Positions 3,527-7,552 of a stretch of 64,000 nucleotides of DNA are shown here, in pieces. The translations under genes were made by a program, and so were the position numbers. Numbering within the stretch: the stretch's first letter is position 1; each line of letters opens with the position of its first letter. Below the pieces are notes generated by a model, which did not search any database, was not told the DNA's origin, and worked only from the letters and a program-made list of their open reading frames with translations. Origin of the DNA: Actinomycetes bacterium (GTDB lineage: Bacteria > Actinomycetota > Acidimicrobiia > Acidimicrobiales > RAAP-2). The stretch lies in contig JAJXZW010000008.1 in NCBI GenBank assembly GCA_021779855.1, positions 1 through 64,000 of the forward strand. The letters run 5' to 3'.

Positions 3527-3608
3527 GACGGCCCCGCCACCAGATCGAGAGCGCGTAGAGCGCTAACCCCCCAAAGGCGAAGGCGTAGCCGGCGTCGACG
3601 TAGCCCAT
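3513..3608 (-). CDS. ccmD: Small membrane protein CcmD
   Basis: 31 aa with one hydrophobic helix (AYAFAFGGLALYALSIWW) followed by an Arg-rich cytoplasmic tail, in the ccmC-ccmE gap where CcmD always lies. CcmD is needed to release holo-CcmE from the CcmABC complex. The ATG shares one base with the ccmC stop (TGATG) and the end overlaps ccmE. The size, topology and position are typical; the sequence itself is too short for independent proof. Confidence 0.8.
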   Translation of the reverse strand: MGYVDAGYAFAFGGLALYALSIWWRGRRARR

Positions 3609-4330
3609 CAGGCGACCCCCTCGCGTCGGCGCAGTTCGAGGGCCTCGGCGAAGGCGACGGCGTCGCGCTCGGCGCGCGCGATCTCGAGCCGGTAGCGCGC
3701 CCGCAGCAGCCAGAAGAAGAGGCTCGTGAAGCCGAGGAAGCTGATGAGCAGCGTCCAGGCCATGATCCCGTGGATCAGCAGCGTGCGGTTCGCGGTGAAG
3801 ACGGTCGCGCCCTGGTGCAGCGTCTTCCACCACTGGACCGAGAAGTGGATGATCGGCACGTTCACCGCGGCGACCAAGCAGAAGACAGCCGCGCGTGTGG
3901 CGCGCGCCTCGGGGTCGTCGGTCGCCCGGCGCAGCGCCAGGTACGCCAGGGCGAACAGCCCGAGCACGGCCGTCGAGGTGAGCCGCGCGTCCCAGGCCCA
4001 CCACACCCCCCAGGTGGGCCGCCCCCAGATCGAGCCGGTGATGAGGGTGAGGGCGATGAAGACGACCGAGACCTCCATCGCGCAGTGCGCTACCCGGTCC
4101 ATCGTGCCCGAGCGGGTCCGGCGCCAGAGGTAGAGGGCCGAGGCGATCGTCGCGGTGCCGAACGAGACGTAGAGGGCCACCCAGGCGATCGCCGGGTGGA
4201 CGTAGACCAGACGCGCGAGGTTGCCCTGGACCTTAGCCGGCGGGGTGACGAAGAGGCCCAGCCAGAAGGTGAGCGCCAGCAGGACGAGCGTGACGGGCCC
4301 CAGCAGGCGTGACGCGACCATTTTCACCAT
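3608..4330 (-). CDS. ccmC: Haem exporter/handling protein CcmC
   Basis: 240 aa, six predicted membrane helices. CcmC loads haem onto CcmE. The WWD motif ([12 protein letters not shown], about 107-118) and two conserved histidines, in YVHPAIAW (about 45) and in the VPIIHFSV loop, are present. The ATG at 4330 lies inside the 8-bp target duplication of the transposon next door. Upstream codons belong to the mobile element, so longer readings are artefacts. Before the insertion this ATG overlapped the ccmB stop. Expression now depends on read-through of the element or on a promoter inside it. Confidence 0.93.
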
Positions 4331-4331
4331 G
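4324..4331. repeat. Target-site duplication, ccmC side (TCACCATG)
   Basis: An 8-bp direct repeat identical to 6240-6247. Read on the minus strand it is CATGGTGA and contains the ccmC start codon. Removing the element and one copy gives a continuous ccmB-ccmC overlap. Confidence 0.8.
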
Positions 4332-4350
4332 CGGGGGTATCCATCTAACC
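4332..4350. repeat. Terminal inverted repeat, tnpB 3' end
   Basis: 19-bp end of the element, CGGGGGTATCCATCTAACC. It matches the opposite end in inverted orientation at 16 of 19 positions with an unbroken core GGGTATCCATC. The TAG stop of the tnpB-like ORF (4345-4347) lies inside it. Confidence 0.75.
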
Positions 4351-6189
4351 AGGGGAGTCTAGGGCTCGTTCGATTGATGGTCTGCCCGTGCCCGGACTGT
4401 CTGCTCGACAGGGGCCGCGCTCGCCGCCAGAGGTGACGACGCGGTCCCCGTCGAGGTCGACCAGGGGGTCGGTGCTTCGCCGCGAGCGTCGATCTCGACG
4501 AGCGCCGGACTGCGCGCCCGCCCGTCTCATGCTTGACTGCCGAGAGATGACTCCCGGCCTCCGGGACGCCGCGGTCAGGGGACCCTCGGCCCCCGTCGCC
4601 CATACGCGCGTGGCGTAGGGCACGTCCAGGTAGAAGGTAGGTGCGTCACCACCGACGCACCCGGCGAGCAGCGCCGAGTGGAGGTCGCGCTGCACCGGGG
4701 CACTGTCACAGGCGAGGCAACGATGCGTGCGCTGTGCGAGGAGCTTGGCCAGCTTCGCTCCGCAGTGGCAACTCGCCGTCAGCGCAAGGCTCGTGGGCAC
4801 CAGAGTGAGTCCGGGACCGCCGGCCAGCTTCGCCTCGACGTCGATCTTGGCCCGGAGATCACCCGGGGCGAAGGAGAGGATCGATCTCCCCCACCGCTTC
4901 TGCCAGGGCCGCACGCTGACGTCCTCGGTGACGAGATCGGCCCCTAGCCCGGTGACGATGGTGCGGGCAAGTCCGTTGCGACGGCGTTTCCTTTCCTCCA
5001 CGATGCGTCGATCCTCGTCAGTCAGGCGCTGCTGGCGCTCGCGATGGGCCCGAGACGTGACGAGCCTCGCCCCGGGCTTGTAGCTGCCCCGGTGAGCCCG
5101 GCCCCTCGCGTCTGGGAGGAAGGCCGCGGGGTTGGTGTTGCGGCGTGACCGGTCGAGGGCGCGCTGCTCGCGCCGACGACGCAGTGCCCGCTCCTTCTCG
5201 CGGGCCCGTTCCTCCACGCTCGACGTCACGAGCAGGGCCGCCGTGACCCGACCGCCCTCGACAGCAACCGCGGCGAGGCTGGAGACCCCGAGGTCGAGGC
5301 CCACTCGGGCGCTGGGCACGTGGTCGTAGAGCCCGGGGGCGCGGTAGGGGGCGAGGCGGGCGACGAGGTGGGCCTCGTAGCGGGGCCGGCCCCGCACGAC
5401 GCGGCGCTCGAGGCTGACCGTGCGCCAGGTGTCGGGGCGATCGAGGTAGTGGCGCTCGCGCTCGTAGTCGGGGTCACCGGGCTGGGACACGACGACCGGG
5501 ATCTCGAGGCGTCGCTCGCGGTCCCGGCTCGGGCTGAGGCGCAGGACCAGACCACTCTCACCTTCTTGGAGAGTCAGGCCCGCCCACGTGCCGTGACGCT
5601 CCTTCGGCGGGGTCTTGTCCCGGGCGAGAGCCCGCTCGGTCTCCGTAGGGGTCGCCGGACCGCGTCCCTGGTCGCGGGAGGACCCCGGCAGGTGAGTGAC
5701 TTCGCGCGCCCAGGGGACCTTGGGCCGGCCGGCGCCGGCGAAGACGTGGCGCTCGAAGACCTCCCAGACCTCGTGGCTCACTCTGAGAGCCGAGGAAGAG
5801 GGCACGTGCTCGGCGATCCAGTGCGACTCGCGGCGCAGTTCCAGTACCACCATCTCGAAGTCCCGCTCGGAGAGCCGGTGGGACAGGCGAGCGGCGTCGA
5901 GGGCCTCATTACGAGCCGTGCGGGCGGGTGCGTTGATCACCTTGCCCGTGGCGTCGAGTCCGGTGGGGAGTCCGCGAGCCGCCCGCCACTCGGGGCTCTG
6001 GCGCAGGTCCCGGAGACGGGCGAGCCCGAAGCGCGTGAGGGCCCGTCTCAGGTTGCCCGTGGCGAAGAGGGCCTGGTCGAGACGGTGGGCCTGGGCGGGA
6101 CTGGGCCTCAGGTCCAGCACAAGGACGCTGCGGTCAGCGGCGGCGGCGATACGGGACACGCAGGAGATCGTGTCACCGAGCCGTGACAA
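4345..6189 (-). CDS. TnpB-like / Cas12-related RuvC endonuclease
   Basis: 614 aa, clearly longer than usual TnpB (about 400). It has an N-terminal WED-like strand (LRPSPAQ), a central helical and beta region, and a complete split RuvC domain: Asp299 in GLDLG (RuvC-I), Glu422 in VTEDVS (RuvC-II) and Asp502 in QRDLHSALL (RuvC-III). A four-Cys zinc ribbon (C474, C476, C491, C494) lies between II and III, and an Arg-rich helix near 328-350. About 110 residues of low-complexity Arg/Gly/Ser follow RuvC-III and reach the TIR; this part may really be guide-RNA sequence kept open by high GC. The TTG start at 6189 has AAAGGG upstream; GTG at 6159 is an alternative. By family knowledge it would be an RNA-guided DNA nuclease. 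No TnpA or CRISPR array is adjacent. Confidence 0.8.
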
Positions 6190-6220
6190 GCCAACCCTTT
6201 GGAATGGCGGCCTTCACCCC

Positions 6221-6239
6221 GGTTTGATGGATACCCACA
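6221..6239. repeat. Terminal inverted repeat, tnpB 5' end
   Basis: 19-bp end of the element, inverted relative to 4332-4350. It is followed directly by the second copy of the 8-bp duplication. Confidence 0.75.
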
Positions 6240-6247
6240 TCACCATG
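6240..6247. repeat. Target-site duplication, ccmB side (TCACCATG)
   Basis: Second copy of the 8-bp direct repeat. On the minus strand it reads CATGGTGA and supplies the last Trp codon and the TGA stop of ccmB, so ccmB is not truncated. Confidence 0.8.
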
Positions 6248-6899
6248 ATTCCTCGACAACACCGTAAAGGAGAACGCCGAGGGCCACGTAGGCGGCCAGG
6301 GCGACGAGGGAAATCACCCACCACTGCCAGAGCGCCCCCCCGGCGAGGGCGCTGTGGTAGGCCCGCTCCCCCGCGATCAGCAACGGCACGAAGCCCGGGA
6401 ACGAGATCGCCGGCAGCAGGGTCGCGGCGCCGCCCCCGCCGCAGAGCGCGCCGTAGAGCGACCCGGCCGCGGCGAGCGCGCCGAGGGTCACCGCGACGCT
6501 CGGCAGGGCCTCGAGGGTCCCCGCGAGCCCCGCGTGGAGCAGCAGGACCGAACCGGCGAGCAAGACCGCGCCGATCGCCCACAGCTCGACCGCCAGCGCC
6601 AGGGCCTTGCCGAGGAAGACCCCCGCGGGGTCGAGCCCGAGGGTCGCGACCGAGGTCCGGGTGCCGCTCGCGCCCTCGATCTGGGTGGAGCGGTTCACGG
6701 CGAGGAGGGTGACGAAGAGCGCCACGAGGTAGAAGAGCCCGGGGCCGGCGTCGGAGTGGCCGGCGCGCGCCGGCCCGAGCGCGATCCCGGCGAGCACCAG
6801 GGCCACCACCCCGAAGGGCAGCACCTGCCAGAGGAGCACCCGGCTGCGCGCCTCGATGCGCAGGTCCTTGCCCGCGACCAGCAGGGCCGTCGCGATCAC
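6240..6899 (-). CDS. ccmB: Haem exporter membrane subunit CcmB
   Basis: 219 aa, six hydrophobic segments. CcmB is the membrane partner of the CcmA ATPase in the CcmABCD haem-release complex. Family-like features include the N-terminal KDLRIEARSR stretch before the first helix and FPGFVPLLIAG in the fourth/fifth helix region. The GTG start at 6899 overlaps the ccmA stop (GTGA). The natural stop TGA (6242-6240) falls in the target duplication of the transposon, so the C-terminus is native despite the insertion immediately after it. Confidence 0.9.
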   Translation of the reverse strand: MIATALLVAGKDLRIEARSRVLLWQVLPFGVVALVLAGIALGPARAGHSDAGPGLFYLVALFVTLLAVNRSTQIEGASGTRTSVATLGLDPAGVFLGKALALAVELWAIGAVLLAGSVLLLHAGLAGTLEALPSVAVTLGALAAAGSLYGALCGGGGAATLLPAISFPGFVPLLIAGERAYHSALAGGALWQWWVISLVALAAYVALGVLLYGVVEESW

Positions 6900-7552
6900 G
6901 GCCGTCCCGAGGGGACGTCGCCGACGACCCGGCCGCCCGCCATCGCGAGGGTGCGCGGGGCCAGCGTCGCGCTGCGCAGGGGGTCGTGCGCGCTCAAAAG
7001 GACCGTCGCCCCGGCGGCCACCACGTCGGCGAGCAGCGCGTCGAGGAAGTCGCGGCCCTGCGCGTCGAGCGAGGCGTAGGGCTCGTCGAGCAGCCAGAGC
7101 TCGGCCCGGCGCACGAGCAGCCACGCGAGCCCCAGGCGCCGGCGCTGGCCGGCCGAGAGGCGCCGGGCCGCGGTCGCCCGGCGGGCCGCGAGGCCGACGC
7201 GCTCGAGCGCGGGGTCGATCGCCGCCACGGGGCGGCCGAGGGCCCGGGCGGCGAAGACGAGGTTCTCGCGCACGCTGAGGTCGTCGTAGAAGGAGCCCTC
7301 GTGGCCGAGCCAGCCGACCCGCCGGCGCAACGACCGCCGGTCGCCCGCCGCGAGGTCGATCCCGCAGACGACCGCGCGCCCACCGCCCAGTCCCACCAGA
7401 CCGCCGAGCAGGCGCAGGAGGCTCGTCTTGCCGGCGCCGTTGGGGCCGGTCGCCACGGTGAGGGTCTCGGGCTCGACGACGAGGTCGACCCCGGCGAGGA
7501 GGGGGTAGCCGGCGGAGGTGACGACGGCCCCCTCGAGGGTCACCACGGGCAC
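6896..7552 (-). CDS. ccmA: Cytochrome c biogenesis ATP-binding protein CcmA
   Basis: 218 aa ABC ATPase that drives release of holo-CcmE from CcmCD. Walker A GPNGAGKTS is near residue 38, the signature region LSAGQRRRLGLAWLL follows, Walker B LWLLDEP and the H-loop SAHD come later; the signature is LSAGQ, as usual in CcmA. The GTG at 7552 is chosen because homology begins at once (VVTLEGAVV) and it lies 11 nt after the gmd stop. Co-transcription with gmd is likely. Confidence 0.92.
   Translation of the reverse strand: MPVVTLEGAVVTSAGYPLLAGVDLVVEPETLTVATGPNGAGKTSLLRLLGGLVGLGGGRAVVCGIDLAAGDRRSLRRRVGWLGHEGSFYDDLSVRENLVFAARALGRPVAAIDPALERVGLAARRATAARRLSAGQRRRLGLAWLLVRRAELWLLDEPYASLDAQGRDFLDALLADVVAAGATVLLSAHDPLRSATLAPRTLAMAGGRVVGDVPSGRP

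Follow-up and report, generated by a model that had tools for sequence, protein, structure and literature searches.

How does a TnpB-type nuclease come to be carried by a bacterial transposon that has terminal inverted repeats and duplicates its target? The question is raised by a 64,000-nucleotide stretch of DNA from an Actinomycetes bacterium (contig JAJXZW010000008.1, positions 1 to 64,000; the window), in which an element of 1,908 bp occupies positions 4332–6239. It is bounded by imperfect terminal inverted repeats (TIRs) and flanked by an exact target-site duplication (TSD) of 8 bp. The single long open reading frame (ORF) that fits inside the element is a tnpB-like gene; there is no transposase, no second gene, and no TnpA. 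We consider it probable that this is a non-autonomous transposon of the IS1595 type, the sole gene of which encodes a TnpB-family nuclease that would be guided by RNA. Because it has no IS1595 transposase gene, the element is non-autonomous at best.

Ends, target duplications, and empty sites

The two TIR arms (4335–4354 and 6217–6236) are paired at 18 of 20 positions. Counting inward from 4332 and 6239 gives the same 16 inverted matches over 19 bp that the initial annotation, made from the letters alone, had reported. When a pattern was built from both ends and searched with up to three mismatches, only these two places in the window were found (0.04 expected). The annotation had also described an 8-bp flanking duplication, and this was borne out, as TCACCATG directly abuts both ends of the element and is present as one copy in empty sites.

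The genome of the window (G000) is a metagenome-assembled genome (MAG) of 2.06 Mb in 51 contigs, 97% complete. It contains four copies of the element: the window copy, a second full copy (C51), and two internally deleted copies of ~0.8 kb (C44) and ~1 kb (C10). The two full copies share 83% of their DNA sequence, and their ORFs, both of 614 residues, are 80% identical. The TIR sequence GGGTATCCATC occurs eight times in the whole genome (backward control, 0); six occurrences are ends of element copies and two are not. A fifth copy with both ends is present in the sister MAG G009, with the same ends and a protein of 45% identity. All five two-ended copies have matching ends (within 1–2 nt) and exact 8-bp TSDs that differ between the copies; in gene orientation these read CATGGTGA, CAAGCAAG, CTACGGTG, CCACCGAG, and, for G009, CTTCAAAA. 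Because a further copy, in G105, is split across two contigs, its ends, both of which carry the 8-mer ACTCCTCT, are only presumed to belong together. Additional ends in G105 and G012 are one-sided.

The element is inserted at the overlap of ccmB and ccmC, which are cytochrome c maturation genes. A 244-nt query composed of the two host flanks and one TSD gave full-length matches of equal stretch length and 93–96% identity in six relatives (G033, G001, G004, G032, G116, and G121), each with one TCACCATG at the site. These six relatives carry the uninterrupted, empty site. The comparison upholds the initial placement of the ends, with the copies ending at the repeats and the 8-mer single in uninterrupted relatives.

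The nuclease gene and the right-end block

In an alignment of 10 relatives, including the window protein, residues D299, E422, and D502 as well as C474, C476, C491, and C494 are invariant, so that the RuvC residues and the four-Cys zinc ribbon noted at the outset as intact are conserved throughout. The window protein matches Pfam OrfB_IS605 (PF01385) with E = 4.2e-6 (27.4 bits; cut-off 30.5) and the guided_TnpB model NF040570 of NCBIfam with E = 4e-12; the latter value is 1.2e-18 for G009 and 8.2e-16 for G105. As these E-values are significant although the scores lie below the cut-offs, the protein is called a divergent TnpB relative. A profile of the ten relatives matched eight distinct PDB sequences at E <= 0.01. 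The best match was 9yyg, a designed RNA-guided nuclease (E = 1.3e-8), and the TnpB structures 8bf8 and 8h1j were matched with E = 3.1e-5. Two alignments were inspected, and in both of them (9yyg and 9j09) the zinc cysteines and the RuvC-III Asp align; the RuvC-II Glu is aligned in 9yyg, and the RuvC-I Asp in weak segments only. The Cas12f profile of PADLOC gave a weak match (E = 9e-9). The RuvC-I motif is DLG (residues 299–301), not the DPG of Fanzor proteins; in the available part of PMC10711439, DPG is given as the Fanzor signature and DLG as that of TnpB.

The nonsynonymous (dN) and synonymous (dS) divergence between the window copy and C51 over codons 1–515 is 0.145 and 0.416, respectively, from which it follows that the nuclease is under purifying selection. 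Judged by these sequence features, the gene product can be classed as a divergent member of the TnpB family of nucleases, in which the D-E-D triad and the zinc ribbon are present. Its last ~100 codons coincide with a conserved block at the right end of the element, and the functional end of the protein may lie earlier.

The guide RNA of TnpB elements originates at their right end and extends into the flanking DNA (PMC10711439, available part). In all four full-length genes (window, C51, G009, and G105) the ORF runs into the right-end TIR. The block there, ~295 nt long, is identical at 267 of 294 positions between the window copy and C51, compared with 889 of 1116 in the middle of the element. 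The deleted copies, both of which retain it, behave in the same way except in the pair C44/C51: C10 matches the window copy at 274/290 positions in the block and 389/497 at the left end (p = 2.6e-10), C51 at 263/290 and 398/495, and C44 at 259/291 and 396/496, while C44 matches the window copy at 264/292 and 415/496 (p = 0.008). The block of C10 is preserved in sequence despite a 4-nt deletion inside it. In G009 and G105 the block is visibly more conserved than the rest, and among 42 pairs in this group two are changed on both sides (G009 versus three G105 copies), five on one side, and five are broken in some copy. The tail of the gene, compared between the window copy and C51, has a dN of 0.054 and a dS of 0.214; because these values are coding-like, the block may be both protein-coding and RNA. 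We regard it as the probable right-end RNA (reRNA) of the element, the scaffold of which would terminate on its 3′ side in the TIR; the conservation evidence for this is good and the structural evidence weak.

Three elements of 299, 397, and 408 bp, similar to miniature inverted-repeat transposable elements (MITEs), have the same or a related TIR and are too short for a transposase gene. Two of them have imperfect TSDs and one has no clear TSD. They suggest that transposition needs less sequence than the right-end block.

Candidate IS1595 partners, target preference, and related elements

A search of relatives for the ends together with a DDE transposase or the same nuclease yielded both: besides the nuclease copy of G009, elements with the same TIR (GGGTATCCATC, GGGTCTCCATC, and similar) and 8-bp TSDs in sister genomes encode DDE transposases of the IS1595 family. 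They are present in G046, G048, G033, G042, and G113. The transposase has 353 residues in G048 and G033, and its frame is shortened or interrupted in the other three. That of G048 matches NF033547 (E = 6.7e-52) and PF12762 (E = 1.7e-23), and also PF12760. IS1595 elements usually have TSDs of 8 bp, as stated in the available part of PMC8101967. The initial annotation had proposed either the capture of a TnpB or a non-autonomous TIR/TSD element moved in trans, and the same-TIR IS1595 elements, together with a tnpB element free of transposase, support that proposal. PF12762 is present in 26 of the 99 genomes of the genus.

Beside the transposase in one same-TIR element of G048 (C1) lies a second ORF of 201 residues without a Pfam match, perhaps a passenger. 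Another element, in G039 (C28), has a related TIR, the TSD AAAAACAA, and a lone SIMPL-domain (DUF541) gene, with no transposase.

The nucleotide just outside the TSD is T in 11 of 13 flanks of TnpB copies (7/7 left, 4/6 right) and in 10 of 14 flanks of seven TnpB-free elements. The latter, six containing an IS1595 transposase gene, which has a stop codon in one of them, and the one with the SIMPL gene, were chosen for a same or related TIR and an exact TSD; G046 C227, G003 C29 and C156, G033 C18, G005 C1, G048 C74, and G120 were left out for one to three TSD mismatches or ambiguous ends, as were IS1595 elements with other TIRs. The target-site preference of TnpB and TnpB-free elements is partly alike. 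GNRT is common before the TSD in the seven left flanks of TnpB copies. It was considered as a target-adjacent motif (TAM) and rejected, as G at −4 and T at −1 each occur in 10 of the 14 TnpB-free flanks. Since GNRT-like bases are also present in TnpB-free elements, a TAM is inseparable from the target preference.

At E <= 0.001 the protein alignment is matched in 12 of the 99 genomes of the genus. Only four of them (G000, G009, G105, and G012) have the close type that shares the TIR of the window element, and in G012 it is represented by a fragment at the edge of a contig. When the right-end block was used as the query, lengthy matches were confined to the four G000 copies, G009, and G105, and a DNA search of 100 relatives with the whole element gave short, weak matches only beyond G000 and G009. 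In a class sample of 395 genomes, E <= 1e-25 was reached in two genomes only, both of this genus. A search of genome and viral contigs with the single protein found no related loci; one based on the alignment found three loci in genome contigs and none in viral contigs. Two matching records are Acidimicrobiaceae MAGs (isolates palsa_596 and palsa_641). An 18-mer of the TIR had no exact match in viral contigs, and tblastn against plasmids gave 17 records, each of them less than 60% identical and aligned over less than 80% of the protein. With three mismatches allowed, the TIR was matched in 43 of the 99 genomes, a number that is no count of elements because the backward control also matches.

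A second TnpB family, 27–29% identical to the window protein, occurs in G101 (three copies), G109, G107, and G005, with DNA relatives in G008 and G058. The TIRs of this family are quite different (CTAAGCGTTGAGTCGTAAGTCC and CTAAGAGCTGAGTCGTAAGTCC, of the form CTAAG...CTTAG). Both ends were seen in the three G101 copies, G008 C164, G109, and a deleted copy in G058, 736 bp long, which retains 357 nt of the right end. In these elements no longer target duplication is visible and no transposase was seen; the flanks would be consistent with duplication of TA within CTAG, which is the pattern of IS630-type elements. Two further right-end pieces had no left end in the stretch examined. The presence of a second TnpB family in a different TIR element suggests that the TnpB lineage switched its transposon partner more than once. 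In G092, of the same order, several related TnpB copies lie in a shared stretch of ~2.3 kb (L054–L057); one of them ends at a contig end, and L055 has palindromic GGCCCTGAAGGGCC sequences close to both ends.

Table 1. Positions of the element, its parts, and its neighbors in the window, and of related elements in other stretches (L numbers)
Feature	Stretch	Position	Strand	Basis
TSD, right-end copy; includes the start codon (ATG) of the ccmC-like gene	window	4324..4331	.	single copy in six empty sites
TIR, right end (3′ side of tnpB)	window	4332..4355	+	corresponding end in 4/4 G000 copies
TIR, left end (5′ side of tnpB)	window	6216..6239	-	pairing, pattern search, copies
TSD, left-end copy; holds the stop codon of the ccmB-like gene	window	6240..6247	.	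window letters, empty sites
tnpB-like ORF, 614 residues, predicted TTG start; stop codon within TIR	window	4345..6189	-	ORF list, profiles, alignment
Right-end block (~295 nt) overlapping the ORF at its 3′ end; putative scaffold of the reRNA (omega RNA), which would terminate at the TIR	window	4332..4627	-	conservation, weak fold support
Guide region predicted for an reRNA that extends beyond the right end (TSD and host flank)	window	4310..4331	-	inferred from TnpB/Fanzor biology
Host gene, right-end side: cytochrome c assembly protein, CcmC-like	window	3608..4330	-	PF01578
Host gene, left-end side: CcmB	window	6240..7124	-	PF03379
MITE-like element, 299 bp	L128	1424-1722		
MITE-like element, 397 bp	L130	1395-1791		
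MITE-like element, 408 bp	L126	1476-1883		
Same-TIR IS1595 element, G048 C1	L122	1646-2251, 2256-3317		
SIMPL-domain element, G039 C28	L125	1522-2395		
Second-family element	L172	289-3184		
Second-family element	L173	2148-4993		
Second-family element	L174	2110-5032		
Second-family element	L052	1944-4504		
Second-family element	L175	1926-4194		
Second-family element	L291	1856-2591		
Second-family right-end piece	L293	3361-3458		
Second-family right-end piece	L295	2232-2284		

A possible mechanism, its alternatives, and known systems

An IS1595 transposase would excise and insert the element in trans. As its reRNA the element would use the 3′ part of its tnpB transcript, with a scaffold ending in the TIR and a guide formed by the host DNA immediately beyond the right end. 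This guide may begin at the TSD or, as proposed for Fanzors (PMC10711439, available part), behind it. Excision by the DDE transposase would leave an empty site, at which the guided nuclease would cut, and repair from a chromosome still carrying the element would restore it. Deleted copies that keep the right-end block could supply guides to the nuclease made from a full copy. Cutting and restoring the empty donor site is an idea held for the TnpB of IS605, and it is carried over to the present element by analogy.

Several results weigh against this reading. No IS1595 transposase (PF12762) was found in G000 at E <= 1e-6, and the IS1595 copies of G009, G105, and G012 show other ends or none. The target preference differs in part: G at −4 is present in 5/7 left and 1/6 right flanks of TnpB copies versus 10/14 TnpB-free flanks, and the first base of the TSD is C in 5/7 TnpB copies versus A in 9/14 others. 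No TAM was found in the seven left-end flanks of TnpB copies. For the protein, the NF040570 score is 46.1 bits against a curated cut-off of 100, the OrfB_IS605 score is likewise below its cut-off, and an AlphaFold model built with three sequences is poor (mean predicted local distance difference test score, 45.9). For the right-end block, C44 and C51 do not differ between their ends (280/292 right, 475/496 left). The support from folding is modest, with 300 nt lying 1.9–3.0 standard deviations (SD) below 60 shuffles in five copies, and 100-nt folds of the window copy, C51, and C10 (three of the four G000 copies) fall within 0.5 SD of shuffles. Among 94 pairs in the G000 group none is changed on both sides, 14 are changed on one side, and five are broken, and all Rfam matches are below the gathering score.

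The nuclease could instead be a passenger without a right-end guide function, the block being kept for the tail of the protein or for transposase binding. In support of this, passenger genes are known from IS1595 elements, and an element with a related TIR has a lone SIMPL-domain gene. The frame is also open to the TIR in both full G000 copies, G009, and G105, and the dN/dS of the tail (0.054/0.214) looks coding. On the other hand, the tail of C10 has suffered a 4-nt deletion and still matches the window at 274/290, and third codon positions are less changed in the tail (16/99 versus 141/515, p = 0.02). The 299–408-bp elements cannot hold the block together with the gene-side half seen in C44, and searches with the block miss them; their imperfect TSDs make them weak controls. 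We regard a passenger without guide function as rather unlikely.

A transposon that moved long ago and is now immobile, with its tnpB copies persisting for a function in the host, seems unlikely. In its favor, the DNA identity of the two full copies does not exceed 83%, and no transposase was seen in G000; but two nuclease ORFs are intact, one genome has four insertion sites, and the insertion of the window is absent from six relatives that are 93–96% identical at the locus. Bacterial TnpB has been described from the IS200/IS605 and IS607 families and from IS1341 (PMC9956272 and PMC10711439, available parts), and the ends of an element of the first two kinds might have been misread here. This is very improbable, since every one of the five two-ended copies has an exact TSD of 8 bp, the element lacks a second gene, and its TIRs are common to IS1595 transposase elements; the empty sites, in which the TSD is single, contradict it.

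The preferred reading, a tnpB-bearing non-autonomous IS1595-type transposon, bears on how such nucleases change partners. Cas12 is descended from TnpB, whose presumed role is to keep transposons from being lost at sites that they leave. We found the passage of these nucleases from IS605/IS607 elements into DDE transposons described only for eukaryotic Fanzors. The switch becomes testable in a laboratory bacterium through the present bacterial case, for which there are multiple copies, empty sites, deleted copies possibly bearing guides, and a transposase family that can be named. Such tests could address whether the nuclease benefits an element that transposes by another chemistry, and in what way its guide RNA fits a TIR and an 8-bp duplication.

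The element is similar to the IS200/IS605 and IS607 TnpB elements in its RuvC triad, its zinc ribbon, and the position of the 3′ end of the gene at the right end. The mobility of those elements depends on HUH or serine recombinases; the window element, unlike them, has TIRs and 8-bp TSDs and no TnpA. According to the available part of PMC9956272, 9,996 TnpB-containing elements of six species were sorted under IS605, IS607, and IS1341. Among the matches listed from the published literature, covered by titles and abstract openings and with many subscription papers outside that scope, there was no report of a TnpB carried in bacteria by an IS1595 element or by another DDE/TIR element. With Cas12f and other type V effectors the protein shares weak profile matches only, and its gene, unlike theirs, is a multi-copy transposon gene; no CRISPR-like array is present among 20 of the 38 direct-repeat families listed for 3900–6700. 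The IS1595 family, also named ISXO2-like and related to eukaryotic Merlin (PMC8101967, available part), shares with the element the 8-bp TSD and, in sister genomes, the same TIR; the difference is that tnpB replaces the transposase gene.

The nearest precedent is provided by the Fanzors, which are carried by TIR transposons of eukaryotes. In the available part of PMC10711439, Fanzor1 and Fanzor2* are TnpB-type nucleases carried as cargo of cut-and-paste transposons with TIRs and TSDs, as here; one of the transposons described is non-autonomous, and the TIR and TSD are predicted to be part of the reRNA scaffold. Unlike Fanzor, the window element is bacterial, has DLG and not DPG in RuvC-I, and has a probable partner of the IS1595 type. 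Whether it forms a full bacterial parallel to the union of Fanzor and DDE transposons, in which IS1595 would have captured a TnpB, the TIR would end the scaffold at its 3′ side, cutting of empty sites would protect the element, and deleted copies carrying only the guide would help, we judge to be an even proposition.
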